The notes under the pieces were generated by a model. That model searched no databases and was not told the origin of the DNA. It worked only from the letters and a program-made list of their open reading frames with translations. Source: a virus. Taken from it: a stretch of DNA of 31,076 bases. Position numbers and translations under genes: made by a program. The DNA lies in the IMG/VR virus record IMGVR_UViG_3300024346_000332, positions 1 to 31,076 of that record; one strand, written 5' to 3'. Numbering within the stretch: position 1 is the stretch's first letter; every line of letters starts with the position of its first letter. Shown piece by piece: positions 1 through 17,444 of the stretch.

Positions 1-523
1 TCTTGTTAGGCACAATAATAAGACTACGTCCATACGGCTCAGTTATATGTGAAAGTGTTGCTGTAGTAATTGTTTTACCTGCACCAGTAGCAATCTGTTG
101 CAAGCTCTGTGGATGTTTTAAAAAGTTATTAATTGACTCTACTTGATAGTCACGTAGAATAATCTCTTCGCCTTCTGCTGGATGACCTTTTGGCCAACGT
201 ACATTTTGATCAGCCCAATAACGTTCTGTTACTGGCGTAAAGTCTAATTGTATAGGATGTCTATTGTCTTGAATATCTATTATTTCAACATTATTCTTTT
301 GTAGAACTTGACTAACAACGTCAAGATGATTGACATAACCAGTACCACCAATACCAAAGAAAGCAACTTTTCCATCCCAGCGACCAAGTTTATATTGTGG
401 CATGTACTTTGCGTAAGGCACTTCAAACTTGAGAGCATTCGCGAGCTTCCTTCGTACGTCAACTTCTAGTCCTTCTAGTTTAATGTTTACTTCATCTTCA
501 ATAATTAGTCTACATGTTGCCAT
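1..523 (-). CDS. uvsW: UvsW-like DNA/RNA helicase, N-terminal part (cut by window edge)
   Basis: The gene runs off the left edge; 174 codons are visible from ATG at 521-523. The first ~110 residues match the UvsW N-terminal region, including a YKLGRWDGKV segment equivalent to RYGNWDGRI of T4 UvsW. A Q-motif-like RDYQVESI is followed by Walker A IATGAGKT at about residues 146-153 and a LIIVPNK strand (motif Ia region). T4 UvsW is a superfamily 2 helicase that unwinds R-loops and branched DNA and helps switch origin-dependent to recombination-dependent replication. The ATG directly abuts the TAA of the upstream 410-aa gene, so the two are probably translationally coupled and share the sigma70-like promoter ahead of that gene. 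The C-terminal helicase half is outside the window. Confidence 0.9.
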   Translation of the reverse strand, partial: MATCRLIIEDEVNIKLEGLEVDVRRKLANALKFEVPYAKYMPQYKLGRWDGKVAFFGIGGTGYVNHLDVVSQVLQKNNVEIIDIQDNRHPIQLDFTPVTERYWADQNVRWPKGHPAEGEEIILRDYQVESINNFLKHPQSLQQIATGAGKTITTATLSHITEPYGRSLIIVPNK

Positions 524-1756
524 TTATATCGTCTCAATTTTTCTCATAAAAGGACTAAGCTGATTGTCATAATGTATTATCAAATCTAATTCTCCTATGT
601 ATGTACTAGTTTTTGCATCACCATATGCTTTTCCAGCAAATGTTGTTATAGCCGCGCTAGGAAACCATTCACTTTTTAAAAGTGGTTTCGGTATTTTATT
701 ACTACTAATATACACTATTTTTGTGTCTTTGTCAACCACATTATTAAGATTGTGTTGTTTAATGTATTCGTTAAACGGTTTTCCTTCTGAAGTATTATCT
801 AATCTAAACATTACAGACATGCGTTCGCTAGGTATAATATTTTGAAAGGCCTTATTAAATTGTGTTAAATGATCGTAGCAAGTATCTTCATGTAGTACAA
901 TAACTAACGGAAATCTATATAACTCTAATACTACTTCAGCAAGATTGTTAACAGTGTGTTCTTTATTGTTTACAAATATACTTGCTTGACTTCTGTTTAC
1001 TACTTTTTGTGCAAGCGGAGTTAATGATTTTAAACTTTGTTGTAACTCTTCTTGATCAAAATGTTCTAATCCAAACTGATCTTTTTTGTCGTAATAGTTA
1101 CATAGGTTATCTATATTAGGTTCGCCTATACTGCTAATAGCAAAGTTAAAACTTTTCTCATGTAAATTTTTTAGTTTAAACGAATATATTCCCGGTACGT
1201 ATTTGTCTTGATTTTTTTTCATTTCTAATAACTTCTCATAATATTCTAGTAACTGATCCTCAACTTCAAAGTTGTTGTTTTCATTAAATGTATTAATTAT
1301 TTCGTAGCATGTGTTTTCATTAAATTTAAAGTAGTGTATCTTTTCTACTTTGTCGTATAAGCCTTCGCCTAGAAACTTATTCATTCTTTCAATAGCAGTT
1401 ATTAGTTTCTTTTGAAAAATAAATCTTACACCTATCCAAGGTCCTTCTTCATCTGAAATTAAATGTTCTTCGTCAAATACTTTAACCCAACGACTTCTAT
1501 CTATTGAACGTAACGGCATTCTTAAATTACTATAAGAATCATCAATGTTATATCCGTTAGCATCAAACTGATCTTTATATTGCAACAGTTTTTGTTTGGC
1601 AAGTTCTGCTTGCCTATCTGTATATGCTGTGCCTTTGAAAGTCTGGCGGGCGAGGCTAGTAAGTAAGTTATAGTCGCTACTGTCTATATCAAACTTATCT
1701 GTTTCTCTTGACTGTATTCCGACAAGATGTTCTATGCAATCTTCTAATGTTTCCAT
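524..1756 (-). CDS. Conserved-looking protein of unknown function (410 aa) upstream of UvsW
   Basis: I do not recognise the family. The 410-aa product is charged and soluble-looking, without signal peptide or membrane segment. The middle (about residues 165-185) is Lys/Glu-rich and could be helical. A C-terminal part has alternating strands (FPLVIVLHEDTCYD, KIVYISSNKIPK) that could be a Rossmann-like or nuclease-like fold; this is only an impression. It lies between the glycan cassette and UvsW and ends exactly where UvsW begins, so it probably belongs to the recombination/replication operon. The start ATG at 1754-1756 has no Shine-Dalgarno sequence. A sigma70-like promoter (1763-1791) would start transcription at or next to the ATG, so a leaderless mRNA is predicted. 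Confidence 0.75.
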   Translation of the reverse strand: METLEDCIEHLVGIQSRETDKFDIDSSDYNLLTSLARQTFKGTAYTDRQAELAKQKLLQYKDQFDANGYNIDDSYSNLRMPLRSIDRSRWVKVFDEEHLISDEEGPWIGVRFIFQKKLITAIERMNKFLGEGLYDKVEKIHYFKFNENTCYEIINTFNENNNFEVEDQLLEYYEKLLEMKKNQDKYVPGIYSFKLKNLHEKSFNFAISSIGEPNIDNLCNYYDKKDQFGLEHFDQEELQQSLKSLTPLAQKVVNRSQASIFVNNKEHTVNNLAEVVLELYRFPLVIVLHEDTCYDHLTQFNKAFQNIIPSERMSVMFRLDNTSEGKPFNEYIKQHNLNNVVDKDTKIVYISSNKIPKPLLKSEWFPSAAITTFAGKAYGDAKTSTYIGELDLIIHYDNQLSPFMRKIETI

Positions 1757-1762
1757 AGTGTT

Positions 1763-1791
1763 AGTATACGCTATGTTAGCTTAGAAGTCAA
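1763..1791 (-). promoter_or_regulatory. Sigma70-like promoter for the 410-aa gene and UvsW
   Basis: On the minus strand TTGACT (1786-1791) is followed by a 17-bp spacer and TATACT (1763-1768). The expected start site, seven bases past the -10 box, is about 1756, the A of the start codon. The -35 box and most of the spacer lie inside the last codons of the upstream glycosyltransferase gene. Confidence 0.6.
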
Positions 1792-2619
1792 GCGTTTAAG
1801 TGGTATTCCTTGAGATATTTCTTCTAAAGTAAATTCTGTCCAAGCATAGTCGTTGACCCATTTAGTTCTATCTGGATAAAGAGGATTCTCTATGTTGCGA
1901 AAGTTTTGATCAGCAACATCAAATGCTAGACTGCTAGGTCCTGTAAATGCAGGTACACCATTAATAATACTGTGTATGCCTGGATTGCTTGACCAGCTTA
2001 TAGTAGCCCATATGTTATCAAACTTCATATCGAAGTCGTCATATGAACCTAGTATTTGTCGCGGTTCTTGTCTTATTACATCTTTGAAGTCTCTTTCAAT
2101 TGCTTCAAGTCTGCATCTAGGATGAGGCCTAAATATGATAGGACGTTTCGTTTGCGCTCTTATGAATGTTATTGTGTCGTGTACCCAGCGAGACATTGGA
2201 GGCATGTTTGCCCATTGCAGGCTTTTGTCGTGTTGCCCACATAGTAAAATGTATTCGCCGTTATAGTTCCAGTCTTTTAACTTGATGTTAAAACTGTTAG
2301 CACGATTGCTATCTGTGCTACTAGGGCCAAAGTAAGCGTCCCTATTAATGCCATTGAGTCCAACCTTCCATGTTGTACCTCTACTTATGCCGCCGACCTC
2401 TAAAACTATTATCGGTTTCGATTGTTGTACTGCTTGCTTCCAGATATTTTCGTTTGGAGCCATTCTACCACTCCAAAGAACACTCCAAATGACGTCAACG
2501 TCACAACCACTAGTATTATACAAAACGTCATGCCCAGCAACCACAAGGCTGTGAGCAAAGGCATCAAAAACCGATCTGCTATTCTGTGCGCCATATTGTG
2601 TCCATAAACTGAATCTCAT
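1771..2619 (-). CDS. KpsC/KpsS-like (capsule-synthesis type) GT-B glycosyltransferase
   Basis: This 282-aa protein has the hallmarks of capsule polysaccharide export/Kdo-transferase-like GT-B proteins: IIFRPHPRCR around residue 160, a WATISWSSNPGIHSIINGVPAF segment where a Ser-Ser-x-x-Gly loop follows the Rossmann strand, and a C-terminal NPLYPDRTKWVNDYAW stretch. The same C-terminal pattern occurs in three more cassette proteins (4195-5109, 5795-6571, 7996-8982), so these are paralogues. The donor is likely a nucleotide-activated sugar, but donor and acceptor cannot be read from the sequence. It diverges from the plus-strand glycosyltransferase at 2661 and has its own GTAAATA late promoter at 2641-2647, with TAGGA as a weak ribosome-binding site. 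Family 0.75; exact activity unknown. Confidence 0.75.
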   Translation of the reverse strand: MRFSLWTQYGAQNSRSVFDAFAHSLVVAGHDVLYNTSGCDVDVIWSVLWSGRMAPNENIWKQAVQQSKPIIVLEVGGISRGTTWKVGLNGINRDAYFGPSSTDSNRANSFNIKLKDWNYNGEYILLCGQHDKSLQWANMPPMSRWVHDTITFIRAQTKRPIIFRPHPRCRLEAIERDFKDVIRQEPRQILGSYDDFDMKFDNIWATISWSSNPGIHSIINGVPAFTGPSSLAFDVADQNFRNIENPLYPDRTKWVNDYAWTEFTLEEISQGIPLKRLTSKLT

Positions 2620-2622
2620 AAG

Positions 2623-2629
2623 TTAAATA
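2623..2629 (+). promoter_or_regulatory. T4-like late promoter for the plus-strand glycosyltransferase
   Basis: TTAAATA lies 31 bases before the ATG at 2661. Transcription from about 2635 would give a 26-nt leader containing an AGAGAG purine tract as ribosome-binding site. The promoter interleaves with the opposing late box at 2641-2647. Confidence 0.4.
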
Positions 2630-2640
2630 TTCCTATAAGC

Positions 2641-2647
2641 TATTTAC
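2641..2647 (-). promoter_or_regulatory. T4-like late promoter for the 1771-2619 gene
   Basis: The minus strand reads GTAAATA here. The predicted start near 2635 leaves a leader of about 16 nt with TAGGA before the ATG at 2619. The two opposing promoters in this 42-bp gap would start at almost the same base pair. Confidence 0.45.
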
Positions 2648-2660
2648 AAGAGAGAGTATA

Positions 2661-3509
2661 ATGTCAGACATAACTGTGGTTACAACGTTTCACCGTCCGG
2701 GTTTAAAATTATATGGACAGCGTATGATAGATTCATTTGCTGAGAACGTAAGTGATAAGATCAAACTGCTAGTATATGCAGAAGATTGTAATCCTGTTAA
2801 TCCTAATCCAGAACAAATTACAATATTAGATGCAACTAAAGAGTTACCTAAACTTGTAAAATTTAAACAGCGTTGGGGTAACGTAGACAAAGCAAATGGT
2901 ATTCCTCCAGATGATATTAAAGCACGTAGACCAAGAGATTGGCAAAAGAAGTTTAAGTGGGACGCTATACGTTTTGCTAACAAAACTTATGCAGTGTTTG
3001 ATGCGTGTGAACGTAGCAAAGGTTGGTGTGTATGGATGGACGCAGATACATTTATTCACAGTCCTTGGAAGCACAAAGACTTTGCTCGCTTACTACCTAA
3101 CAATGCTTACATTACATATGTAGGTAGAGGCAAAGGATCACAGACATGGCCCGAGTGCGGCTTTTATGGTATGAACTTAAATCATCCAGTGTGTCACGAG
3201 TTCCTTAAAGAGTTTGAACGTATGTACGAAGATGCAGACAACGGCATTTTTGAATTAGAAGAATGGCACGACAGTTATGTGTTTGGACACATACTAAAAC
3301 ATTATAAAGAATTTGATGCTAATGCATTTGACTATAGTGCTACTATGTATATGCGTGAAGCACGTACAGGTGGCGGCGGACATCCTTTAATTAATACTGA
3401 ACTAGGTAGATGGATGGATCACATGAAAGGTGATCGTAAAACTGCTGGTAAGAGCAAACGTACAGATATAATGGTTAATAGAAAAGAAGACTATTGGACT
3501 AAGTCGTAG
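2661..3509 (+). CDS. GT-A-type glycosyltransferase (plus-strand member of the cassette)
   Basis: This 282-aa protein starts with a typical GT-A nucleotide-binding strand (DITVVTTFHRPG) and carries a DxD metal/nucleotide-sugar motif in VWMDADTFI near residue 127. It has an ECGFYGMN segment and a C-terminal GGHPLINTELGRWMDHMKG that resembles bacterial polysaccharide glycosyltransferases. It is related in plan to the minus-strand genes 3491-4198 and 5106-5798, which have IDADT and LDADI at the same place and ETGFFVLN/ESGLVLFN after it. It is the only cassette gene on the plus strand. Its 3' end overlaps the 3' end of the convergent gene at 3491 by 19 bases. An AGAGAG tract precedes the ATG. The sugar transferred is unknown. 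Confidence 0.8.
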   Translation: MSDITVVTTFHRPGLKLYGQRMIDSFAENVSDKIKLLVYAEDCNPVNPNPEQITILDATKELPKLVKFKQRWGNVDKANGIPPDDIKARRPRDWQKKFKWDAIRFANKTYAVFDACERSKGWCVWMDADTFIHSPWKHKDFARLLPNNAYITYVGRGKGSQTWPECGFYGMNLNHPVCHEFLKEFERMYEDADNGIFELEEWHDSYVFGHILKHYKEFDANAFDYSATMYMREARTGGGGHPLINTELGRWMDHMKGDRKTAGKSKRTDIMVNRKEDYWTKS

Positions 3510-4198
3510 TCAATACGTTCTTTTAATCCTGCTTTATTGTGTTCAATAAATGGTGCTAATGGACTTCTAGGCACAGGTGTTTTTACACGATCCCCGTATG
3601 TCATATTATACATTTTAAAGTTTCTACTGTGCATTGCTTGTACAGTTTTACCGTAAATTTCTCCATCATAAAATCTACGCATACCTTCACGTTTATCATT
3701 ATAATAAATGTCTTTGTATGTATCACAAAACTCTTTGTAGCCTTTGTGTCTTGTATTTAAAACAAAGAATCCTGTTTCACAACTATAATAGTCAATGTCA
3801 TTTTTGTTATGCCATACTTGTAAATGCGAACTTAAAAACTTATCTTGTGTAATATTTCCAAACACTGCTAGGTCAAAAGGCTTCTTAATTATTGTATCTG
3901 CATCAATCCAAATAATTCTATCAGCGTCAATGTTATCCATAGCATGTATAATACTAAAGCCTTTTTTAGCAAATGTTTTTACTCTTTTATTTTTATGTCT
4001 TGCTTGAAATGATTCGTATGCATCGCCTAAGTCCCAACCCATTTCAATAAACGTATCATCATTTAATGAGAAGTTATCTTCATTATAAACATGTAATTTT
4101 ATTAAGTGTGACCAATGTTTCTTAAACGTATTCAACATATTAGAACCACAACGATCATAATATGATTGATTCATACTAGTTATACCTGCGTATTTCAT
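3491..4198 (-). CDS. GT-A-type glycosyltransferase with DAD motif
   Basis: This 235-aa protein has an N-terminal strand KYAGITSMNQSYYD, the central motif RIIWIDADTIIKKP (DxD near residue 118) and ETGFFVLNTRHKG following it, as in small GT-A glycosyltransferases of polysaccharide clusters. It has no membrane segment, so it should act in the cytoplasm on a nucleotide-sugar donor and an unidentified acceptor. The ATG overlaps the TGA of the upstream gene (ATGA), and GGAG lies just before the ATG. It is the last gene of the main minus-strand cassette run. Its end overlaps the convergent plus-strand gene by 19 bases, so the two transcripts are antisense there. Confidence 0.8.
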   Translation of the reverse strand: MKYAGITSMNQSYYDRCGSNMLNTFKKHWSHLIKLHVYNEDNFSLNDDTFIEMGWDLGDAYESFQARHKNKRVKTFAKKGFSIIHAMDNIDADRIIWIDADTIIKKPFDLAVFGNITQDKFLSSHLQVWHNKNDIDYYSCETGFFVLNTRHKGYKEFCDTYKDIYYNDKREGMRRFYDGEIYGKTVQAMHSRNFKMYNMTYGDRVKTPVPRSPLAPFIEHNKAGLKERIDYDLVQ

Positions 4199-5109
4199 AG
4201 GTACTCCTTAATAATATTCCATGCAGTTCCTTTTTCTAAATCTGCAAAATTAAAATGACTCATTGCTAGTTTTTCAATCCACTGTTGTCTTTCAGGACGT
4301 ATTGGATTGTCTAGTTGACTTAAATCTGTATTGCCTACATCATATGCTTGACTAACTTTAGCATTAGGGTCTGTTATAAACACAGGAATACCCTCTATCG
4401 CCGCCGCTACGCCTGGGCTACTGTTGTATGTAACTACTGCCCAGCATTTTCTAAAATCGTCTAATATAGACGGTGCTGTGCTTATCTTAACACCTGGATA
4501 GTTCAAAGTCAAGTATTGTTTTGCTTTCTTATCTCCAGGGTGCGCTCTAACTATAATATCTCTATCAGTGTGTTGTTGTATTTCTTTAATAGTTTTATTA
4601 CACCAATCCATTACGTCATATCCGCCCATGCTCCAACCGCCGTTGCGTTGTAAACATAATAGTATGTGCTTGCCTTTGTTAGTCCACGGTTGCAAATCAA
4701 AACCTAAGTTGCGTTTTAATTGTTGCCAGCGTGTAGGGTCTACATTATCTGTAAAGTAATTACCTGTGGTTGGAAATACATCATCTAAACTAAAACGTAG
4801 ATACTGTTTAGTATTACCTGGATCTCTATATAAGAATAAATTACTATCAATAGCAAGTGTATGTTTGCCAATAAGTTTTTGTTGTTGTATTACTTGTCTG
4901 CGAAACATTAAGTGTGGAGTACTACCGCTATTTGCATGTACCCATCCTTGTATAACACCTAAGTCACTTGGTTCCCAGTTAGGTGTTTGAATTTCTAAAC
5001 TTTCTCCATCAGTGCCTACGCCATTATGGAAACTTGTTAGAACTTGTCTTTTTTCTAAATTTTTATTATGTGCGGGAATACCTGCGTAGTAAATTCTTAC
5101 AGATTTCAT
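4195..5109 (-). CDS. KpsC/KpsS-like GT-B glycosyltransferase
   Basis: This 304-aa protein has IIVRAHPGDKKAKQYL around residue 190, then VVTYNSSPGVAAAIEGIPVF around residue 227: the strand-Ser-Ser-x-Gly and Glu-Gly-(I/V)-P-x-F pattern of capsule-synthesis GT-B proteins. The C-terminus NPIRPERQQWIEKLAMSHF followed by a Gly-x-Ala-Trp-x-Ile-Ile-type end is shared with the other three cassette paralogues. ILLCLQRNGGWS matches YILLCGQHDKS and YVLLCLQKIGDS in two of them. The start ATG overlaps the preceding gene's TGA. It follows a GT-A gene, continuing the GT-A/GT-B alternation. Donor and acceptor unknown. Confidence 0.77.
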   Translation of the reverse strand: MKSVRIYYAGIPAHNKNLEKRQVLTSFHNGVGTDGESLEIQTPNWEPSDLGVIQGWVHANSGSTPHLMFRRQVIQQQKLIGKHTLAIDSNLFLYRDPGNTKQYLRFSLDDVFPTTGNYFTDNVDPTRWQQLKRNLGFDLQPWTNKGKHILLCLQRNGGWSMGGYDVMDWCNKTIKEIQQHTDRDIIVRAHPGDKKAKQYLTLNYPGVKISTAPSILDDFRKCWAVVTYNSSPGVAAAIEGIPVFITDPNAKVSQAYDVGNTDLSQLDNPIRPERQQWIEKLAMSHFNFADLEKGTAWNIIKEYL

Positions 5110-5798
5110 GTTGATGCCAATGTATGTTTAAGTTTGTCTTTATTAGTTTTATTAATATGATGTTTGAAATATAAACTAAAGCGTGTATTTTCTAATGCAT
5201 TTACATTTTCACATACATCGTCACATAAATTTAAGAAGCCTGCTTTTTCACCTTTAGCAAAGTTACCAAGTACAATAGCATCATAAGGTTTGTGTAAACT
5301 TTCTAGTTTGTTTTGATCATTCCAAAATGCCCAATACTTGTTTGACCATAATGTTAATTTTTCATATTCTTCATTAAACAATACAAGTCCTGATTCGTAA
5401 CAGTCAGGGTGTGAATTATTACTTTGCATCATAGCAACTGGATTTATAAATGGAAAACTAAATGCTTCTTCAGGCACTTTACGCATTTGTTCTATGTCTG
5501 CGTCTAACCAAATTATTCTTTCGTCCTCTTGTCTATTTTTTATAGCATGTATTTGTGCTACACTTTTACCCCAGAACTTTCTTATTTTAGTATTAACATC
5601 AAACTCGCTGTCAACATCTAATGCAGGTACATGTAACAATCTTTTGTTAAAAGGCAATTCATTAAACCATTCAACATCACCTTCGTGTTGGTCAATATAT
5701 ATTTCTACTTTGCCGGGCAAGTCCCATGTGCTAATACAATGCTTGCCAACGCCTTTCCAATAGTTTTTTGATATACTTGTAACAAATTTTAATTTCAT
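5106..5798 (-). CDS. GT-A-type glycosyltransferase with DAD motif
   Basis: This 230-aa protein begins KLKFVTSISKNYWKG and has RIIWLDADIEQM (DxD about residue 99), then a YESGLVLFN segment at the position of ETGFFVLN in the 3491-4198 product. The overall plan is that of a compact GT-A enzyme without membrane anchor. Both ends overlap neighbours by the ATGA pattern, so the gene is translated as part of a tightly coupled run. Its sequence is clearly diverged from the other GT-A members, which argues for an old duplication or separate acquisition rather than a recent copy. Confidence 0.77.
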   Translation of the reverse strand: MKLKFVTSISKNYWKGVGKHCISTWDLPGKVEIYIDQHEGDVEWFNELPFNKRLLHVPALDVDSEFDVNTKIRKFWGKSVAQIHAIKNRQEDERIIWLDADIEQMRKVPEEAFSFPFINPVAMMQSNNSHPDCYESGLVLFNEEYEKLTLWSNKYWAFWNDQNKLESLHKPYDAIVLGNFAKGEKAGFLNLCDDVCENVNALENTRFSLYFKHHINKTNKDKLKHTLAST

Positions 5799-6571
5799 AC
5801 TAGGCCCTTTATTATTCTATGTGCTGTACCGTTTTGTAATTCTTCATTATGGAATTGTCCGTATGCTAAGTGACATGCCCATTTATATACTTTATGCGAG
5901 TCTTGTTGTGTTGGACTTTCAATACGACTAATATCCTTATCGCACACTGGATCAGCCGCTGTAGGCGCTGTAGTAAACGCTGAGACGCCATATAACACAC
6001 TTTCTACTGCCGCTATGCTTTGATATGTAACCATTGCATGACAGTTGTCTAAGTCATCATATATAGTTTTGTCTATACGACTTTGGCGTGGTGCTTTGTC
6101 TCTAATTATAATAGTTCTATCTGTATGCTTTTCTATTTCGTTAACAGTATCTTTGACCCATTGATCTCTATCAATACCATAAAACTTACAAGGCTTTTCA
6201 CTAGGTGTAACAAGTAATATATGTGCGCCACCTTTCTTAGGTTTGTGTATTGCTTGTTGTAGTCGGTTCCATCTGTCGTTTGGTCTGTCTATTATTTCGT
6301 TGTGTTGTACATCATTCTTTACTATACGATGCCATTGTTTCCAACCGTTTGGATTTATTGATGACTTGTAGTTTCCTACATAACCACTATCCATATAGTA
6401 AAAGTCTCTTTTGTTCTTCCAACATTCGTGTATAAGTTTTCGTTTGCCCATGCTACGTATTACAATAGGGACATCGTCTGGAAAGTCGCTATAGTCGTAT
6501 ATAGGCAAGTTTGCACTTTTAGCAAACATGTTTATATATTGATCTGTTTTATTTTTACTTAAACATATCAT
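5795..6571 (-). CDS. KpsC/KpsS-like GT-B glycosyltransferase, short and diverged
   Basis: The ATG at 6569-6571 gives 258 aa (MICLSKNKTDQY...). The frame is open upstream to a TTG at 6622, but that would overlap the previous gene by 68 bases, so I prefer the ATG with a 17-base overlap. The family signals are ILLVTPSEKPC, IIIRDKAPRQSR (where relatives have RPHP or RAHP) and VTYQSIAAVESVLYGVSAF, followed by the shared C-terminal pattern ending AYGQFHNEELQNGTAHRII. The loss of the His-Pro pair at the RxHP position and the shorter N-terminal domain suggest altered or reduced activity. It may be a partner subunit rather than an independent transferase. Confidence 0.68.
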   Translation of the reverse strand: MICLSKNKTDQYINMFAKSANLPIYDYSDFPDDVPIVIRSMGKRKLIHECWKNKRDFYYMDSGYVGNYKSSINPNGWKQWHRIVKNDVQHNEIIDRPNDRWNRLQQAIHKPKKGGAHILLVTPSEKPCKFYGIDRDQWVKDTVNEIEKHTDRTIIIRDKAPRQSRIDKTIYDDLDNCHAMVTYQSIAAVESVLYGVSAFTTAPTAADPVCDKDISRIESPTQQDSHKVYKWACHLAYGQFHNEELQNGTAHRIIKGLV

Positions 6572-7226
6572 ACAGTTCTTGTTTCCATAATTCATTAAAC
6601 TGACAGTCTCTATAGTTTTCAAACCAAGGACCTCCTTCAGTGAAATGAATTAATTTAGGTTTTTCAATATCGTCGTACACACCTACTAAGTAGTTCCATG
6701 TATGATCTAGTTCGCCAATTTCTTCATCTTGTAGCCAACTAAACCTATGAAAGTATGCACCATTTAATTCTAAACTGTTAACTTGATCTTGGTCAACAAC
6801 TTTATTACTAGGATGACTACAGTTCCATAACACAACACTTGACCAGTTCTTGCGTGGATAGATAGTTTGTTTTTGTCCGTCCATCTTAATACCTTCTTTA
6901 GGTGTGTAATCATGTTGCACACACATAACAGCATACTTGTCATCTGCTTGATCAAATAATTCTTTAATGTCTGTTGTAAGCAACATATCACAATCCATAA
7001 ACAAAGCCCAGCCTTTATAGTTAGCAAGCTCTGGTACTAAGAAACGTGTAAATGTAAATTCTGTTGATGCAAGTTTATCTTCAGGACGCTTGTACCATCC
7101 TGCTTGTCTTAATTCTTTTTGTACTAGCGGACGTACATCTGCATCGGGTTGATGCTTTAGTATGCTATGTTTACACACTTGATAAGCCATATCTTCTCTT
7201 GGTTCGTAGCCTATGAATACTTTCAT
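6555..7226 (-). CDS. GT8-like glycosyltransferase
   Basis: This 223-aa protein starts KVFIGYEPREDMAYQVCKHS, has a FMDCDMLLT motif (DxD near residue 94), a short VLWNCSHPS strand and a C-terminal LIHFTEGGPWFENYRDC. That His-Phe-Thr-x-Gly-x-Pro-Trp block is typical of GT8-like retaining transferases, where the His coordinates the metal. The ATG overlaps the TAA of the upstream cytidylyltransferase gene (TAATG), with GAAGAG as ribosome-binding site. The full set of motifs suggests an active enzyme. The substrate is not determinable. Confidence 0.8.
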   Translation of the reverse strand: MKVFIGYEPREDMAYQVCKHSILKHQPDADVRPLVQKELRQAGWYKRPEDKLASTEFTFTRFLVPELANYKGWALFMDCDMLLTTDIKELFDQADDKYAVMCVQHDYTPKEGIKMDGQKQTIYPRKNWSSVVLWNCSHPSNKVVDQDQVNSLELNGAYFHRFSWLQDEEIGELDHTWNYLVGVYDDIEKPKLIHFTEGGPWFENYRDCQFNELWKQELYDMFK

Positions 7227-7987
7227 TAATCTCTTCTTTCTATATCTTCTTCATAACAGTCGCCCCATTGTACTTCTAGTATATGAGTGTTCTCTGTTCC
7301 AGGATTGCTTGCCTTATGCCAAACTTGTTTACCAATTTGAAATGTTCTACTTTTTGGTTCTAGTATTATACTACTTTGTATACTATTCCATTCAGTGTCC
7401 ATTTTAACTGTGCCTTCTAGCACATTCCATTCTTCTGAACGCTTAAAGTGTTTTTGATCACTGAGTGATTTACCTGGATATATTACAAGCTCTTTTACTT
7501 TGTAACCTTTGTCTGGCTTGTCATCTAGTACACGCCAATAGCCCCAATCACGTTCAGTCTTTTGTGTTTTCCACTCGTCAAGTATCCAACTACTACTGTT
7601 GGCTTTGTTCTCTCCGCCTACGCCGAATTTAAAAGAAATATTTTCTACATCTGCTTCCATCTCTGGAATATTCTCAGATGTTCTATCTCCGCCGTTTGCA
7701 AATATGATATGTGCATCAGGATATAACAGTCTAACATTGTTTATTGCTTCAATAGCACTATCGTCATCGTCACCAAATAACAAACAATGATCAACCATTG
7801 ATAAGTTTTTTATAATTGAAATGCGTTCGCCGCCGGGCATAAACGGACGACCTTTCTTGCGTTTTAACCAAGCATCTGTATTAACACCAACAACAAGTTT
7901 GTCGCCGAGTTTCTTTGCTTCTATAAAATATTCTATGTGTCCTGAGTGTAGCGGATCAAAGCCGCCGGTTACTAATACTACGTTCAT
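7226..7987 (-). CDS. Cytidylyltransferase-like nucleotidyltransferase fused to a ManC-type cupin
   Basis: This is a two-domain protein of 253 aa. Residues 1-130 are a nucleotidyltransferase of the TagD/RfaE C-terminal type: GGFDPLHSGHIEYF (HxGH motif at 17-20), VVGVNTDAWLKRKKGRPFM and a GERISIIKNL segment equivalent to the RxxIL motif. This fold activates a phosphorylated sugar or polyol with CTP or ATP. Residues about 145-250 are a cupin resembling the mannose-6-phosphate isomerase part of ManC: WGYWRVLDDKPDKGYKVKEL, PGKSLSDQKHFKRSEEWNVLEG. The usual HHHRAEHW metal motif reads KHFKRSEEW here, so metal binding may be altered. A late promoter at 7993-8000 puts the ATG at the predicted transcription start; no Shine-Dalgarno sequence is seen. 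It probably supplies an activated precursor to the cassette. Confidence 0.8.
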   Translation of the reverse strand: MNVVLVTGGFDPLHSGHIEYFIEAKKLGDKLVVGVNTDAWLKRKKGRPFMPGGERISIIKNLSMVDHCLLFGDDDDSAIEAINNVRLLYPDAHIIFANGGDRTSENIPEMEADVENISFKFGVGGENKANSSSWILDEWKTQKTERDWGYWRVLDDKPDKGYKVKELVIYPGKSLSDQKHFKRSEEWNVLEGTVKMDTEWNSIQSSIILEPKSRTFQIGKQVWHKASNPGTENTHILEVQWGDCYEEDIERRD

Positions 7988-7992
7988 GTAGA

Positions 7993-8000
7993 TATTTATT
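7993..8000 (-). promoter_or_regulatory. T4-like late promoter inside the glycan cassette
   Basis: The minus strand reads AATAAATA, then five bases (TCTAC), then the ATG of the cytidylyltransferase gene. The predicted start is 7987, the A of ATG. The box contains the TAA stop codon of the upstream gene. This would give the downstream cassette genes a late expression component. Confidence 0.55.
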
Positions 8001-8982
8001 GCATGATTTGTGTATGCTTTTGTGTCTTGGCTTGTTCAAATAAAGAATGTAATGTATGCCAAGGATCACCTCTTTGTATTTCTTCACCTGTCCACTGTGC
8101 ATAACTCATATCATTTAACCATTGTTGTCTATCAACGGGTTGCCAAGCAGTCTCAATATGATGTAAATTGCTTCTAGCAATAGGTGATGCTACTGAACTT
8201 GGGTCTAATGTATACGTTGGTTTGCCATTAAAAATGCTCTCAACTGCCGTTAAACTACTAAAAACTATAACGCATTTTGAGTCTAAAATGTCCTTTTTAA
8301 GCCCACCGCTGGGTGCCATAGTAACACTTCCGTTGTATTCAAAGTTGCTACTCATTACCACATTTGTATATTTGCTTGCTAACTCTGAAAAGTATCTTAC
8401 TTGTGGTCGCATATTATTTGGGTGTGGGCGTATTACAATTTTTCTATCTGTATTTCTACGTATTTCGTCTAGTGTATCTTTTAACCATAAGGTGTATGCT
8501 TGCCAGGCTGTGTCGGTATTGTATTTTTTATACAAATGATTTAAACTACTATCACCAATTTTCTGTAAGCATAGTAATACATAATCGCCGTTATCGTCCC
8601 AAGGGTTTATTTGTAAATCAAAATCCTTTTGCATCATTTCCCAACGGTCACTAGGACAGTCTTTTGGATACGTGCCAGTATTATAAAAGTAACTATTCCA
8701 AGCAAGCCTGTGCCATTTAGTTAATTTACTGTTACCTTGTAAATCTCTAAAGATAGGACTTTCGTTTACAATAGAAGGTTTATCACTACGTGCAATAAAT
8801 TCAAATGCATCTCTAGTTACTTTCTTTCCTTCATAATGTTTTAAGATATTTGTTTGGAAATAAAAATCAGCATAGTTAGAATCTAAACAACTTTTTAAAT
8901 CAAATGTATGTCCATGTGCGTATAGCATACGCTTTAGTATTCCAGATGACTTACTTGCGCCTATTACTGCTACGCCTTTCAT
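7996..8982 (-). CDS. KpsC/KpsS-like GT-B glycosyltransferase
   Basis: At 328 aa this is the longest of the four paralogues. It begins KGVAVIGASKSSGILKRML, has YVLLCLQKIGDSSLNH, KIVIRPHPNNMRPQV near residue 205, CVIVFSSLTAVESIFNGKPTY, and the shared C-terminal block RQQWLNDMSYAQWTGEEIQRG. Keeping RPHP, the Ser-Ser loop and the Glu-Ser-x-x-Asn-Gly-x-Pro block, it looks like the most complete family member here. The ATG overlaps the TGA of the HAD-like gene. Its stop codon TAA is embedded in the late promoter of the next gene. It likely transfers one sugar in a stepwise assembly. Confidence 0.78.
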   Translation of the reverse strand: MKGVAVIGASKSSGILKRMLYAHGHTFDLKSCLDSNYADFYFQTNILKHYEGKKVTRDAFEFIARSDKPSIVNESPIFRDLQGNSKLTKWHRLAWNSYFYNTGTYPKDCPSDRWEMMQKDFDLQINPWDDNGDYVLLCLQKIGDSSLNHLYKKYNTDTAWQAYTLWLKDTLDEIRRNTDRKIVIRPHPNNMRPQVRYFSELASKYTNVVMSSNFEYNGSVTMAPSGGLKKDILDSKCVIVFSSLTAVESIFNGKPTYTLDPSSVASPIARSNLHHIETAWQPVDRQQWLNDMSYAQWTGEEIQRGDPWHTLHSLFEQAKTQKHTQIMQ

Positions 8983-10202
8983 TTCTTTTGCTCATTAAAC
9001 TTTGCCCATTTAATATTTGTTGTTGCATATTCTTTACTGTGCATACGTTCAACAAACTTTAACAATAGTTCTTTGTTAGGCTTAGGTTTAAATAAATCAC
9101 AAATACTAATTGCACTAGCCATTGCATTATATTGTATCTTTGCAATCTGTTGAGGATGATCGTTTGGTCCTCTAATAGGTCCATCTTCGTCCCAATCAAT
9201 TACTGGTCCAAACTGATAGCAGTTGTGTTTTTCTAAACTCTTTGTAGCAAACGGTACAAGACGATCAATGTAAGGAAGTGTCTTTCCTCCTATGTATATT
9301 GTATGCGGTGGTGCTTGGTTATAAAATTTATAAATGCTATTACCTTCACCTTGCAAATCTACTATAGTTGTGTTAGCATCAATCGTTCTATCTATATATT
9401 CTTTAAAGTGTTCGTTAGGTTCTAAATACATTTTCCTACTAGTAATAAGCATCTTACTTTTCTTACCAGTCATTGCTTCGTATAACGGTTGCCAATTACA
9501 ACAGTCTCTATATGTAAAAGCAATATCTCTATCTGGTAGTTCTAGTGTAGCAAGTGCTAGTACAGGCAAGTTTAAGTTTGCTTGCTCAATCCAATACTTC
9601 TTTGCATCGCCTGTATGTGGACATAATAACCTAGTTTTACGCATCCAACATGCTAGTTGTGGATCTACTTCATATGCCATTTGTTCAAGCTCTGTGAAGT
9701 GTGTAAGCGTGTCTAAGACGCCATTAACTCCGTTTGCTTGTGCAGTTTTAACATCGCTATGTTCGTTATCTCCATAGTGTGTATCTATGTTATACTTCTG
9801 TTTTACACTATCCCAAATGTATCCGTGACGCTTACCATACCTAGTAACAATAATATCTACATTTTTTGTTAGTCCGCAGTTGCGTAATATTTTCATAATT
9901 TCATCTGCACTAAGATACATGTCACTTAGTATTAAGTCACCGTCTTTGACTTTGTTTATATTTTCTACTATTGGAAATAAGTGTTCAAGTTCTACTTGTA
10001 ATTCAACTTGTGGATCGTACTCAGGTAACAGTTTATAGATGTCTTCGAAGTTGCCTTCGTCTTTCTTAGTTGCTTTTTCAGCACGTATACGTTTTTTAAC
10101 GTAGTTAGAATCGTTAATACGTCTAGCAGTTTCTTCATGTACTGTTTTAGGATAAAAGAACCTACGTGCAATTAGTGTATCAAATACGTCCCAACTATTC
10201 AT
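8979..10202 (-). CDS. HAD-superfamily phosphatase-like protein of glycan clusters
   Basis: Starting at the ATG at 10200-10202 the product is 407 aa. An in-frame TTG two codons upstream is less likely. HAD motif I is WDVFDTLIARR (Asp5 and Asp8), the variant DxFDT seen in HAD-like proteins of bacterial polysaccharide clusters. LILSDMYLS follows near residue 93 (motif II region), TRYGKRHG supplies a conserved Lys, and HYGDNEHSDVKTA near 142 is motif IV. The C-terminal 250 residues are not recognised and could be a separate glycan-modifying domain. It overlaps the FkbM gene by eight bases. It could dephosphorylate a sugar phosphate feeding the cytidylyltransferase, but that is inference from context. 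Confidence 0.72.
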   Translation of the reverse strand: MNSWDVFDTLIARRFFYPKTVHEETARRINDSNYVKKRIRAEKATKKDEGNFEDIYKLLPEYDPQVELQVELEHLFPIVENINKVKDGDLILSDMYLSADEIMKILRNCGLTKNVDIIVTRYGKRHGYIWDSVKQKYNIDTHYGDNEHSDVKTAQANGVNGVLDTLTHFTELEQMAYEVDPQLACWMRKTRLLCPHTGDAKKYWIEQANLNLPVLALATLELPDRDIAFTYRDCCNWQPLYEAMTGKKSKMLITSRKMYLEPNEHFKEYIDRTIDANTTIVDLQGEGNSIYKFYNQAPPHTIYIGGKTLPYIDRLVPFATKSLEKHNCYQFGPVIDWDEDGPIRGPNDHPQQIAKIQYNAMASAISICDLFKPKPNKELLLKFVERMHSKEYATTNIKWAKFNEQKK

Positions 10203-10848
10203 GCTCAAATTCTATATCCCACTTATTGATTCTATGTACTTTGTATCCATGTGGTGATAGGTAATCCGTTAACTTTTCAATCATGCCTTTTCTATTACCA
10301 TGTTCAATAGTCATAAACTTTATTGTAATTTTACTAAAGTCTATACCTTGTAACGCTTCTAGTTCAGCACCTTCTGTATCCAAACTCATGTAGTCAATTG
10401 TACACGGCAATTTATGATTCTCTTGTAATATTGTAGTAACGGTTTTGCTTGTTACTGTTGTAGTTTCTGTTTTATCTTTAAAATGTTTTTTAAAGTATTT
10501 TTTATTTCTAGCATCTAAATCTACGTTTGTAATTCTAGATAACAAGTCTCCTCGAATATCCTTATGTTCACTTAAAGGAATTTCAAAAGTAACTTCACCG
10601 TTAGTATTAAAAACAGCACAATGTACTACTGTACTATGCTGTCTGTTGTTTTGTAGTTGCGGTATTAAATGTGGATTTGCTTCTATACAAATACCTTTCC
10701 AGCCAAAGGAGTAGTCTAATGTAGCAGTATTACTTGTAAATACTCCATCATTAGCACCAATATCTAAATAGAATCCTTCACGTTTACCACGTGATATATT
10801 TTCAATATAATATTTGTCTTGTTCTATTTGACTGTAGTATTGTGTCAT
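10195..10848 (-). CDS. FkbM-family SAM-dependent methyltransferase
   Basis: This 217-aa protein has SAM motif I FYLDIGANDGVFTSNT (residues 27-42), the acidic ribose-binding residue in GICIEANPHLIPQL and a DYMSLDTEGAELEALQGID block near residue 155, all diagnostic of the FkbM family. Members commonly O-methylate sugars of polysaccharides or glycolipids. The length and motif set indicate a complete enzyme. The ATG overlaps the TGA of UvsY (ATGA), so the cassette begins as a direct continuation of the recombination operon and may be partly read from the gp32 promoter. Confidence 0.87.
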   Translation of the reverse strand: MTQYYSQIEQDKYYIENISRGKREGFYLDIGANDGVFTSNTATLDYSFGWKGICIEANPHLIPQLQNNRQHSTVVHCAVFNTNGEVTFEIPLSEHKDIRGDLLSRITNVDLDARNKKYFKKHFKDKTETTTVTSKTVTTILQENHKLPCTIDYMSLDTEGAELEALQGIDFSKITIKFMTIEHGNRKGMIEKLTDYLSPHGYKVHRINKWDIEFEHE

Positions 10849-11300
10849 AGCGTAGCATCTTCCATACCTGCTACACGTAGTTTAACTACGTTTGTTATTT
10901 GCCATTGCTTTTGATCAAGTCCTTTTAAGACACCTAACCACTTATTACGCATTAGTGCAAACTCGTTAATAATTTTTTCATAATCAACAACGTCTGCCTC
11001 GCCGTCAACGTATTTTTCTACGTCACGACTAGACAGAGCTCGTTGATAATTTTCTAAGTATTTTTTAAAGTATGAACTACGCAACCTGCGTAGCTCAATG
11101 TTTAGATAGTTTAGGATTGCTTCAATCTCTTGTAATTGATTGAACCTGTGTTCCACTATGCCTGGCATAGCCGCTGATGCTTTTTCTACACTGCCAACTA
11201 ATTTAACTTCTTTCTTTGCGTCAATTAGTTCACTTTCATAGAATGTAACTGCATTAGGTATCTTGTTAATGTCTCTAGATACTTCGCTATACCAACCCAT
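10845..11300 (-). CDS. uvsY: UvsY-like recombination mediator
   Basis: This 151-aa protein is close in size to T4 UvsY (137 aa) and sits behind UvsX. Its largely helical sequence with an LRRLRSSYFKKYLENYQRALSS segment (residues ~71-93) is the conserved part of UvsY; IINEFALMRNKWLGVLKGLDQKQW follows. UvsY is a hexamer that loads UvsX onto gp32-covered single-stranded DNA. The ATG follows the upstream stop by only a few bases and no clear Shine-Dalgarno is seen, which suggests reinitiation. Its TGA overlaps the FkbM start, joining the recombination operon to the glycan cassette. Confidence 0.85.
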   Translation of the reverse strand: MGWYSEVSRDINKIPNAVTFYESELIDAKKEVKLVGSVEKASAAMPGIVEHRFNQLQEIEAILNYLNIELRRLRSSYFKKYLENYQRALSSRDVEKYVDGEADVVDYEKIINEFALMRNKWLGVLKGLDQKQWQITNVVKLRVAGMEDATL

Positions 11301-15817: not shown

Positions 15818-15825
15818 TATTTATC
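15818..15825 (-). promoter_or_regulatory. T4-like late promoter for the 660-aa gene
   Basis: The minus strand reads GATAAATA, then five bases (CATTT), then ATG. The predicted start is 15812, the A of ATG. The box overlaps the TGA stop of gp17. Confidence 0.6.
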
Positions 15826-17404
15826 AATAGTTACTGCTAATGAAGATAGGCATTGGTGGCTCATAATCTTCATCTTGTTCGGCTTGATTGAATGTATTAT
15901 ACACTCTTGGATCCCAGTCTTTTAGTACTGCCATCATTCTAATAGCAAGTAATGTAGCACTTACTAAATCATCTGTCATTCCTGACTTTGCTTGGAAACT
16001 TGAGCCTGTTGCAACAAAACCTTTTAGTTCTGATAATAAAGGTTTACTTATTATAGACATTTTATCGTTTTCTATCATAGTTTTAAGTCTACTACATGCA
16101 GTAATTTTTGTACCGTGTGTAGTATTAAATCCTTTACGGAACTTACGTACATGTCCTTTGCGTATAGGTTCACTTACAAATAGTCCGGGTATATTTTCTT
16201 CACCAAAGTCATTTATAACAATTAGTGCGGCTTCACCTATACCATTGTTTTCTACACTCCAATATACATTAGTATCGGACTTAGATTCAGTAGCAATGTA
16301 ATTACATATATCACTTAATACTCTAACTTGTCCTGGAATGCCTGTTTGGTTATGTTGCCACTCTGCTACTTGTTCATAACTAGGTAATTCAAATACTTCA
16401 ATTGCGGCATTATCGCCACCTGTTCCCATTGACGGATCTAATGCAACTGCATATGTAAACTCACTGCTTGGCTTTTTATACCAACGAGTTTGACCCATAT
16501 TTAATATAGGATTTTTACCATCCATTGCGGCTAACTTAATACTGTTAATAAGTGTTTCATCAAAGACTAAGAATTCACAGCCGTATTCACGTCTAAACTT
16601 TTCTTCGCCTATGCGTCCAATTTCTGCTTCTTTCCATTCTTCATCTCTATCTGGATGCTCCTGCCACTCTGCAACAAAACTATGAAATCCGTTTGACCCT
16701 AGTTCAGTTTCATTACCGTGTGCGTCAAACTTCTCTTCTGCTTGTTTCCAAATAGTAGCAAACGTATCTTCATCACTGTTAGGTGTGCTAGTAATAATAG
16801 CACGACCACCTGTTGCTAGTGTAGGTGATATTGATGTCCAAAACTCTTCTGCGATGTTAGGTTGCACAAATGCAAACTCGTCACAGTATAGTAATGATAT
16901 GGACATACCACGTCCAGTGTTTCCAGTAGTTGTTTGTGATACAATTCTACTGCCGTTTTCAAATTCAATTGAGCCTTTGTTATATGATGTAACACCTGCA
17001 CGTATGTGATCTTCACACGTTTCATATATGTAACGTATACGTGCCATAATCTCTTGAGCACCTGTGTATTTGTGTGCCGCAATTAGTATAGTTTGATCAG
17101 GTACAAACATTGCATACCATGCAAGGTATATTGCCGCACAAGTAGTTTTACCTGTTTGTCTAGGCATCATGTTTATATTAAAACGATAACTGTGATATGA
17201 ATGCATCAAACGTGTTTGATACTCATAAGGATCAAACAACAACTTACCTTGTACAGGATGTTGTATAAAAGCAAACTTCTTGGCAAAGTACATATACCCT
17301 GTGTCAGTATCTGTACATGCTAACAAGTCAGCAATTTGTGCTTCGCTAAATGATTCTTTTTGATTGGCCTTTTTAGTAAGGACACCGTCTAAACTCTTGC
17401 TCAT
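15824..17404 (-). CDS. 17: gp17 terminase large subunit
   Basis: The product is 526 aa from the ATG at 17402-17404; five extra codons to a TTG at 17419 would begin inside the terminator T-tract and are rejected. The ATPase domain has Walker A MPRQTGKTT near residues 80-88 and Walker B SLLYCDEFAF near 170-179, followed by an ITSTPN coupling motif. The C-terminal RNase H-like nuclease starts with VALDPSMGTGGDNAAIEV (first catalytic Asp about 323). It is the motor that packages and cuts concatemeric DNA with gp16. It is preceded directly by a terminator and a GTAAATA late promoter only four bases from the ATG, so a leaderless mRNA is predicted. Confidence 0.96.
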   Translation of the reverse strand: MSKSLDGVLTKKANQKESFSEAQIADLLACTDTDTGYMYFAKKFAFIQHPVQGKLLFDPYEYQTRLMHSYHSYRFNINMMPRQTGKTTCAAIYLAWYAMFVPDQTILIAAHKYTGAQEIMARIRYIYETCEDHIRAGVTSYNKGSIEFENGSRIVSQTTTGNTGRGMSISLLYCDEFAFVQPNIAEEFWTSISPTLATGGRAIITSTPNSDEDTFATIWKQAEEKFDAHGNETELGSNGFHSFVAEWQEHPDRDEEWKEAEIGRIGEEKFRREYGCEFLVFDETLINSIKLAAMDGKNPILNMGQTRWYKKPSSEFTYAVALDPSMGTGGDNAAIEVFELPSYEQVAEWQHNQTGIPGQVRVLSDICNYIATESKSDTNVYWSVENNGIGEAALIVINDFGEENIPGLFVSEPIRKGHVRKFRKGFNTTHGTKITACSRLKTMIENDKMSIISKPLLSELKGFVATGSSFQAKSGMTDDLVSATLLAIRMMAVLKDWDPRVYNTFNQAEQDEDYEPPMPIFISSNY

Positions 17405-17408
17405 ACTG

Positions 17409-17415
17409 TATTTAC
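17409..17415 (-). promoter_or_regulatory. T4-like late promoter for gp17
   Basis: The minus strand reads GTAAATA, four bases (CAGT), then ATG. The start is expected within one base of the A of ATG. The 16-base stretch GTAAATACAGTATGAG is identical to the promoter/start of the HNH gene at 25595. Confidence 0.6.
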
Positions 17416-17417
17416 TC

Positions 17418-17444
17418 AAAAAAATAGGGCCCGGAAGCCCTATT
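17418..17444 (-). terminator. Rho-independent terminator between the 230-aa gene and gp17
   Basis: On the minus strand AATAGGGC and GCCCTATT form an 8-bp stem around a 6-base TTCCGG loop, followed by seven T. It should stop transcripts from gp16 and the two following genes, forcing gp17 to use its own promoter. Confidence 0.85.

Follow-up and report, generated by a model that had tools for sequence, protein, structure and literature searches.

A conserved block of glycan genes between UvsY and UvsW in a clade of marine T4-like phages

The IMG/VR virus record IMGVR_UViG_3300024346_000332 is a linear virus fragment of 31,076 bases, which is analysed here over its whole length and called the window. 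Eleven open reading frames (ORFs) fill its positions 1771-10848, with UvsY on one side and a conserved gene, g410, together with UvsW on the other. This block is a real and conserved glycan module, and a variant of the lipopolysaccharide (LPS)- and capsule-modification clusters already known from phages: such a cluster is defined by a nucleotidyltransferase, several glycosyltransferases (GTs) and tailoring enzymes in a phage genome, and the block contains them all. What the module does is a matter of graded probability. The reading preferred here, for which the chances appear evenly balanced, is that the block specifies a cytosolic pathway which adds 3-deoxy-D-manno-oct-2-ulosonic acid (Kdo)-type and other sugars to a glycan of the host envelope, and which belongs to the core of this phage clade. 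Sugar-modifying genes of marine phages are usually described as scattered auxiliaries, while in this clade the place of a glycan pathway in the gene order is almost as constant as UvsX-UvsY-UvsW, and many members also have enzymes of Kdo synthesis.

Composition and conservation of the block

The block consists of four proteins of GT-A type (A1-A4), four paralogous K proteins (K1-K4), a nucleotidyltransferase-cupin (CTcup), a HAD phosphatase (HAD) and an FkbM methyltransferase (FkbM). From the UvsY side the gene order is FkbM, HAD, K4, CTcup, A4, K3, A3, K2, A2, A1, K1.

10195-10848, minus strand: FkbM-type methyltransferase (accessory), overlapping uvsY by 4 bases; PF05050, E 1.6e-17
8979-10208, minus strand: HAD, N-terminal CrpP-like phosphatase with a C-terminal domain (accessory); profile match to Bcs3
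7996-8982, minus strand: K4, KpsC-type GT-B by profile, with QxxxD (Q140, D144) and RPHP (R185, H187); hhalign to KpsC modules
7226-7987, minus strand: CTcup, HxGH-type nucleotidyltransferase fused to a mannose-6-phosphate-isomerase-type cupin; Pfam
6555-7226, minus strand: A4, GT8-like retaining GT-A with DxD at 78-80 (core); PF01501
5795-6622, minus strand: K3, K family, without Q/D and without HP motif (core); profile and motif counts
5106-5798, minus strand: A3, GT-A related to A1 and A2 (accessory); DxD, hhalign to A2 at probability 95.2
4195-5109, minus strand: K2, K family, with QxxxG and RxHP (core); Gly in 98/98, gene in 49/54 loci
3491-4198, minus strand: A2, GT-A related to A1 (accessory); hhalign A1-A2 at probability 99.7
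2661-3509, plus strand: A1, retaining GT-A (core); structure model, gene in 50/54 loci
1771-2619, minus strand: K1, KpsC-fold GT-B with QxxxS and RPHP (core); structure model, gene in 50/54 loci

The original prediction, made from the letters of the window, had described eleven largely overlapping glycan genes inserted between UvsY and UvsW, and all eleven ORFs are confirmed. Ten are co-directional; A1 alone lies on the plus strand, convergent with A2 and overlapping it by 19 bases. The minus-strand genes from UvsY to A2 meet at nine junctions, of which eight are overlaps (of 4 bases five times, and of 1, 14 and 68 bases as called) and one is a gap of 8 bases. The likely start of K3 is the ATG of codon 10 or a later one. 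The block adjoins UvsY directly, but from UvsW it is separated by g410.

Pfam names three of the eleven proteins, i.e., A4, CTcup and FkbM. A membrane segment is likely in none of them (the highest 19-residue hydropathy mean is 1.37), and polymerase, flippase and membrane protein are all lacking within the set, in agreement with the pathway as originally described; a search of 12 incomplete records of relatives for the flippase family PF01943 gave no match. A PADLOC scan of nine proteins returned one marginal match, CTcup at E 0.005.

Relatives, numbered here with the prefix L, were gathered with UvsX (80 loci), HAD (18 loci) and UvsW (80 loci) as anchors. The UvsX and UvsW sets are the best 80 of at least 600 stretches each, with distant relatives under-sampled, and some contigs sit in two sets (identical K1 in L104/L266, in L102/L242 and in others). 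The HAD-anchored loci are biased; they are excluded from the counts over 47 and 54 loci below, and included in the set of 74 loci (12 of them) and in the comparison of K4 with KdsA.

When at least 2 kb is available after UvsY, one or more of the cassette families is present in 46 of 47 UvsX-anchored loci, and when at least 6 kb is available in 33 of 33, sometimes with one family only. Of the UvsW-anchored loci, 54 extend upstream for 8 kb or more or as far as UvsY; in these, A1 and K1 are found in 50 cases each, A4 and K2 in 49 each, K3 in 48 and CTcup in 41; the number for K4, 14, is a lower bound, since the upstream stretches end at 10 kb. A2 occurs in 4 of these loci, HAD in 3, the window's type of FkbM in 1 and A3 in 0, and the corresponding numbers for the 47 UvsX-anchored loci are 2 for A2 and 0 for the other three. 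FkbM, HAD and A3 are, in other words, nearly confined to close relatives of the window phage.

The order A4-K3-K2-A1-K1-g410-UvsW is complete in 72 of the 74 loci that have A4, K1 and UvsW (54 UvsW-anchored, 12 HAD-anchored, 7 UvsX-anchored and the window itself; 66 distinct K1 sequences). A1 points against K1 in 43 of the 74 and with K1 in 31, with the order of its neighbours unchanged; A1 is a recurrent single-gene inversion.

In four distant relatives (L316, L319, L320 and L321; UvsW identities 67-69%) the site is empty and reads UvsY-g410-UvsW. From the core genes in 50 of 54 loci, taken together with these four empty sites, follows that the core of the block is a clade feature of uncultured marine T4-like phages, gained or lost once or a few times, with a variable part at the UvsY side. 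A one-off insertion is rejected by the same count. The idea of an inserted cassette thus keeps its footing in the variable part and in the empty sites, but fails for the core, which is not special to one phage: the genes that the UvsW-anchored relatives carry at this locus are related to those of the window in 50 of 54 cases.

At the UvsY side, 123 loci together have 343 accessory ORFs, which fall into 95 clusters. Fifteen of 18 chosen cluster representatives match Pfam up to E 0.001, some of them below the family cut-off, and the families include FkbM and other methyltransferases, GT25, polysaccharide pyruvyltransferase, sulfotransferase, sugar epimerase, redoxin, asparagine synthase and kinase. 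By analogy, such a conserved core with a variable end would resemble the layout of bacterial O-antigen loci. In one clade a small kinase-like protein lies near HAD (L099:11169-11741); it matches a protein-kinase family and, weakly, the Kdo/WaaP kinase family (1.5e-4).

The predicted enzymes and their donors

The four K proteins form one paralogous family, in which profiles built from relatives align in all six pairs with hhalign probabilities of 99.7-100. Structures were predicted for K1 and A1, and the fold placement of K2, K3 and K4 rests on profile homology to K1. The K1 prediction is confident (pLDDT 92.5), and the modelled protein has the KpsC fold: against KpsC 6mgc it gives a VIA Z of 14.2 at 3.7 A over 230 aligned residues, and the rows of its fold comparison descend from KpsC (Z 13.1-14.2) over WbbB (12.0-12.3) and KrkA (10.5-10.7) to other GT-B-like folds from 10.2 down, the KrkA rows being tied with GT-B-like folds that are not Kdo transferases.

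KpsC, WbbB and KrkA are described in PMC12887879 as retaining beta-Kdo transferases (GT107, GT99 and GT140), which share the motif QxxxD, where Asp is the nucleophile, and the motif (K/R)xHP for cytidine monophosphate (CMP). When the K4 profile is aligned by hhalign to nine bacterial KpsC modules (probability 61.5, E 1.1e-5, 296 columns), QKIGD of K4 falls on QTAGD of KpsC and RPHP falls on the HP motif of KpsC. The nine modules were selected by the QxxxD...HP pattern itself, so that the presence of the motifs in them is by construction and the register with K4 is the result. The bacterial KpsC- and KpsS-type genes were taken from genomes in the class of a SAR11 genome, and two of the seven KpsC-type ORFs (L221 and L222), in which the pattern match is absent, are left out of the profile.

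The residue at the nucleophile position is fixed within each of three K families. It is Asp in 52/52 K4-type proteins (41/41 distinct sequences), Ser in 98/98 readable K1 (2 unreadable; 87/87 distinct) and Gly in 98/98 readable K2 (2 unreadable; 88/88 distinct), and the R and H of RxHP are kept in 51/51 readable K4 (1 unreadable), 97/97 K1 and 97/97 K2. K3 has neither Q nor D in 112/112 readable proteins, and the position of H is taken by K in 107 of 116. These counts skip gap positions; the first count included pieces of the window (L001-L008) and HAD-anchored loci, and the recount used distinct sequences. Judged by its motifs, K4 is alone among the K proteins in fitting the sequence definition of Kdo transferases. 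Compared with KpsC, WbbB and KrkA, K1 shares the fold and K4 shares both motifs in register with KpsC, whereas K1 and K2 carry Ser and Gly in place of the nucleophile, K3 is without both motifs, and each phage K protein is short and single-module. The original assignment of four KpsC/KpsS-like GT-B proteins is supported for K1 by the fold of its model and for K2-K4 by profile homology to K1; the KpsC nucleophile is lacking in K1-K3. Pfam has no match to the window's K1-K4 up to E 0.1; PF05159 (Capsule_synth) matches 1 of 32 K members, at E 0.0091 and without reaching the gathering score, and sequence searches of the Protein Data Bank (PDB) gave one chance match for K1, one for K2 and none for K4.

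DxD is present in 4/4 GT-A proteins, as had been read from the letters. A1, A2 and A3 form one family (hhalign 91.5-99.7), and A4 stands apart (0.8 against A1). A4 is a GT8 protein (PF01501, 26.3 bits against a cut-off of 24.3, E 6.6e-6) with DxD in 42/42 aligned sequences; its sequence search in the PDB gave weak matches only, at E 0.0065 and above. A1 has no Pfam match and none in a PDB sequence search, and its predicted structure, which is confident (pLDDT 90.8), folds like retaining GT-A enzymes. The top match is the capsid glycosyltransferase of PBCV-1 (VIA Z 14.1, 3.0 A, 178 aligned), tied with the histo-blood-group type transferase 4ayj (Z 13.8, 3.3 A, 194 aligned); the rows of GT8, GT6 and GT34 kinds span Z 14.1 to 12.8. 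K3 and A4 are one fused ORF in 17 of the 74 loci, from which it would follow that A4 acts next to K3.

The first 178 residues of HAD match the CrpP domain of Haemophilus influenzae Bcs3 (residues 385-605, E 3.5e-16), a ribose-phosphate phosphatase domain whose limits are taken from PMC10299916. Its nucleophile motif WDVFDTL aligns with FDIFDTL of Bcs3, and the two domains share FDTL, SDMYLP and GDN in the alignment. Unlike its counterpart in Bcs3, the phage protein is free-standing and has a different C-terminal domain, for which a PDB sequence search gave no match up to E 10, and its profile matched no CriT or CroT part. CTcup matches PF01467 (CTP_transf_like, 7.3e-13) and PF01050 (MannoseP_isomer, 8.9e-17). 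The three further assignments of the original prediction hold at the level of family, the cytidylyltransferase-cupin as a nucleotidyltransferase-cupin. Catalytic motifs are kept in the GT-A proteins, HAD, the nucleotidyltransferase and K4, but the KpsC nucleophile is lost in K1-K3, in a manner particular to each family.

The window ends inside UvsW, and the region past UvsW, in which relatives have genes for Kdo synthesis, lies outside it. The 101-kb contig L093, of which L231 is a part, carries a near-identical cassette, with KdsA and a KdsB-like gene 3-4 kb past UvsW; the contig's match to PF02348, the family of CMP-sugar synthetases, follows directly behind KdsA, at about 4 kb from UvsW. 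KdsA of L231 exceeds the curated TIGR01362 cut-off (317.8 against 314 bits), and the KdsB-like protein has KdsB models as its closest matches (1.6e-47), though under their cut-offs. KdsA is found in 10 of 18 virus records (two of them truncated at the edge of the contig), as well as in the bin to which L124 and L127 belong, and PF02348 in 5 of 12 relatives' records and in 4 of 15 in a second set; KdsA and KdsB are both absent at L319 and L320, two cassette-free loci with enough DNA. Since many relatives carry KdsA, often together with a KdsB-like gene, a Kdo-type donor for the pathway is indicated by gene content. Among nine marine bacterial genomes, seven of which give a match, KdsA of L231 comes closest to a SAR11 protein, at 49% identity, which does not suffice to settle the host.

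Consider next the case where K1 and K2 use a cytidine-activated polyol or sugar supplied by CTcup instead of Kdo, and where KdsA and KdsB serve K4 or the host LPS only. This is compatible with the host envelope as target, and is a substantial though somewhat doubtful possibility. K1 and K2 have kept R and H of the CMP motif throughout and have Asp in none of 98/98 proteins each; CTcup occurs in 41 of 54 loci, and cassette-bearing loci without KdsA exist. The best PDB matches of the CTcup profile are 3elb (1.3e-19) and 1coz (4.1e-15), which makes ethanolamine-phosphate and glycerol-3-phosphate cytidylyltransferases its nearest relatives there, but it is also close to HldE domain II of ADP-heptose type (5.2e-22, below the cut-off), which leaves its nucleotide undecided, and 13 of 54 loci are without CTcup in the stretch seen. 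One step further, and doubtful enough to be offered tentatively, K1 and K2 could represent a KpsC-derived family in which the nucleophile was swapped for a fixed Ser or Gly and the CMP motif was retained, i.e., a double-displacement Kdo transferase turned to another mechanism or donor, serving as core genes for an O-antigen-like glycan designed by the phages themselves, whose inner part is conserved while its outer part changes fast.

The proposed pathway, its target and the alternatives

In the preferred reading of a cytosolic pathway acting on the host envelope, donors would be activated by CTcup and by KdsA with the KdsB-like protein, encoded just outside the block in the relative with the near-identical cassette. 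Transfer would be carried out by the retaining-type GT-A proteins (A1 and A4 of the core, A2 and A3 as accessories) and the paralogous K proteins: K4, with its double-displacement nucleophile and CMP motif, would transfer Kdo or a similar CMP-sugar to a glycan acceptor, and K1 and K2 would transfer a cytidine-activated donor by another mechanism. The FkbM methyltransferase and the CrpP-like phosphatase would tailor the product, and the host would supply arabinose-5-phosphate, Kdo-8-phosphate phosphatase, carrier and export. The product would most likely re-dress host LPS, O-antigen or a capsule-like glycan during infection, and the variable genes at the UvsY side would alter its outer decoration from phage to phage.

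Several results weigh against this reading. No acceptor, carrier, ligase or exporter is seen. The hhalign probability of K4 with KpsC is modest, the K1, K2 and K3 profiles failed to align to KpsC by hhalign, and since K1-K3 lack the KpsC nucleophile, there is no indication that the core K proteins transfer Kdo. The KdsB-like protein scores below every equivalog cut-off (TIGR00466, 105.3 against 155.2; the best model PRK05450.1-5, 161.7 against 193), and the KdsC and KdsD families occur in 0 of 12 records, from which follows that the rest of the Kdo pathway would have to come from the host. There are also cassette-bearing records without KdsA near UvsW and without CMP-sugar synthetase, e.g., the 115-kb L264 and the 92-kb L302; several KdsA-negative loci span only 4.1-4.8 kb beyond UvsW. 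The link between K4 and KdsA is loose. Among 32 loci that have UvsY and UvsW with 3.5 kb beyond it, or in which KdsA is seen, 11 have both genes, 1 has K4 without KdsA, 11 have KdsA without K4 and 9 have neither (Fisher p 0.05; p 0.10 without the two empty-site loci, when the last number is 7; relatedness is ignored in both), and 7 of the 11 loci with both genes were retrieved by the HAD search and are closely related among themselves. The association is weak evidence at best, and a strict pairing, which looked perfect in the first records, is weakened by this larger set. A search for the QxxxD...HP pattern in the 11 loci with KdsA and without K4 found no such protein.

Comparable gene sets are known. 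GT8 and LPS genes have been reported from pelagimyophages (PMC7029224; also PMC9599517), capsule-modification clusters with nucleotidyltransferases, GTs, cupins, HAD phosphatases and methyltransferases from jumbo phages and cyanophages (PMC7824862), and marine viral kdsA or kdsB as auxiliary genes (PMC10653327, PMC5332604, PMC9529941). What the gene sets of PMC7029224 and PMC7824862 have in common with the window block is marine T4-like phages, GT8 with other GTs, nucleotidyltransferases of rfaE/HIGH type, cupins, HAD phosphatases and methyltransferases, and for those clusters a change of the host surface against co-infection has been proposed. The genes described there belong to the host-recognition region with the tail fibres, are spread along the genome by twos or threes, or form sporadic polymorphic clusters, whereas the clade of the window has its core between UvsY and UvsW in 50 of 54 loci, paralogues of the KpsC family and, often, KdsA. 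No description of a UvsY-UvsW block or of KpsC-family paralogues in phages was found in searches of an open-access library.

Partial counterparts exist in named phage genomes. The cultivated Synechococcus phage S-SCSM2R (PQ898602) has an A4 homologue (49%) and, two genes on, KdsB followed by KdsA, but differs in having no K-family or A1-type match among eleven proteins scanned from that region. Pelagibacter phage Mosig EXVC030M (MT647606) has A4, A1 and two K3-type proteins in one run, which lies beside methyltransferase, RuvC and ribonucleotide-reductase genes, with no match to UvsY, UvsW, CTcup, K1, K2 or K4 in a 29-kb stretch. Among 50,697 phage records, relatives of K1 and of A1 occur in 2 each (Mosig EXVC030M and a podovirus only), of K4 in 1, of A4 in 18 and of parts of CTcup in 25. 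In the podovirus, MW202713 (L108:17086-19436), a K4-type protein with intact QxxxD lies close to an A1-type protein near the terminase gene, so that the pair spans different phage types.

The target could also be the virion itself. Soluble enzymes would then glycosylate a structural protein of the phage (capsid, sheath or fibre) stepwise in the cytosol, with no need for a lipid carrier or flippase, and the lack of a membrane protein in the set and of the flippase family in the incomplete records is what this would lead one to expect. Phage GTs are reported to glycosylate the virions of mycobacteriophages. Virion glycosylation is suggested for one phage in the abstract of PMC11256854. The top fold match of A1 is an enzyme titled in the PDB as acting in glycosylation of the PBCV-1 major capsid protein, but it is tied with 4ayj within 1 Z. 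Furthermore, the known settings of KpsC-type enzymes and of Kdo are lipid-linked pathways for capsule and LPS (PMC12887879), no acceptor protein has been identified, and the block sits with recombination genes. All in all, a virion target is unlikely, albeit far from negligible. If the block is a glycan pathway of the proposed kind, the question of whether a phage makes an envelope or virion glycan of its own can be put to the test, and the K proteins of the block would offer KpsC relatives from nature that differ in the residue of the nucleophile position, useful for work on the mechanism of retaining transferases.

The genes could, at the other extreme, be auxiliaries without a joint product, acquired independently and persisting as filler DNA. 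When the window is compared with its near relative L094, all eleven genes are open, and the ratio of nonsynonymous to synonymous divergence (dN/dS) is 0.03-0.14 for ten of them and 0.23 for CTcup. Synonymous divergence is 0.84 for CTcup in this comparison and 0.15-0.34 for the other ten genes, and in the comparison with L098 it is 0.28 for A4 and at least 0.92 for the five other shared cassette genes with a value; these outlying values indicate, from sequence divergence, that CTcup and A4 were exchanged separately. Such separate recombination is what filler DNA would display, but the order fixed in 72 of 74 loci, the low dN/dS and the gene fusions oppose it and make it very improbable.

Least credible of all is glycosylation of the phage DNA, as when T4 glucosylates hydroxymethylcytosine, which the T4-like phage and a locus beside recombination genes might bring to mind: the thymidylate synthase/dCMP hydroxymethylase family PF00303 is found in 0 of 12 relatives' records (incomplete), for which reason it was rejected as the main idea, and KpsC-type and FkbM proteins are not known as DNA modifiers.

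Flanking genes and relatives of CTcup

Near full-length relatives of CTcup (45-56%) occur in SAR86, SAR11, SAR116 and other marine genomes and bins, as seen in 80 of the 334 loci. Of these 80, two (L124 and L127) have the whole UvsY-UvsW block, five have an FkbM-type match nearby and the other 73 are without any other cassette family. L124 and L127 (PBPT01000016.1 and PBPT01000082.1; 335 and 153 kb) are two contigs of a single Marinimicrobia bin that both contain this phage block in full, which gives them the appearance of phage DNA that was misbinned or duplicated. L113-L115 share one genome bin, and at least L114 lies among tail-like genes and looks, by eye, like phage DNA. The nucleotidyltransferase-cupin fusion is also found in genomes of SAR11 and SAR86, where its neighbour, named by eye, is a polA-like gene in L128 (SAR11) and a gyrA-like gene in L126 (SAR86).

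The genes that flank the block are the following.

10845-11300, minus strand: UvsY recombination mediator; phrog_231, E 2.9e-16
524-1756, minus strand: g410, conserved gene before UvsW; 54/54 UvsW-anchored loci
1-523, minus strand: UvsW helicase, N-terminal part, cut by the window end; full-length copy in the relative L231

The full-length UvsW (L231:1109-2572) matches the phage DNA helicase family phrog_16 at 8.3e-77. g410 has no Pfam match and diverges fast (dN/dS 0.35-0.40 for the window against L096/L098); it is kept also at the empty sites, and thus belongs to the flank. Promoter and terminator scans of the window gave no clear signal, and the T4 late-promoter octamer TATAAATA has 0 matches in window 1-31076 against 4.9 expected by chance.

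The first 20 kb of the window have no megablast match among the 50,697 phage genomes. Pfam and PHROG profiles identify T4-type genes in the window, i.e., terminase, a gp32-like single-strand-binding protein, UvsX and UvsY. The terminase (window 15824-17419) matches PF03237/PF17289 and phrog_36964, the latter at 3.3e-118, and the proteins of the phage collection that match it best, at 53% identity, come from PA5oct-like Pseudomonas jumbo phages and not from cultivated marine T4-like phages.

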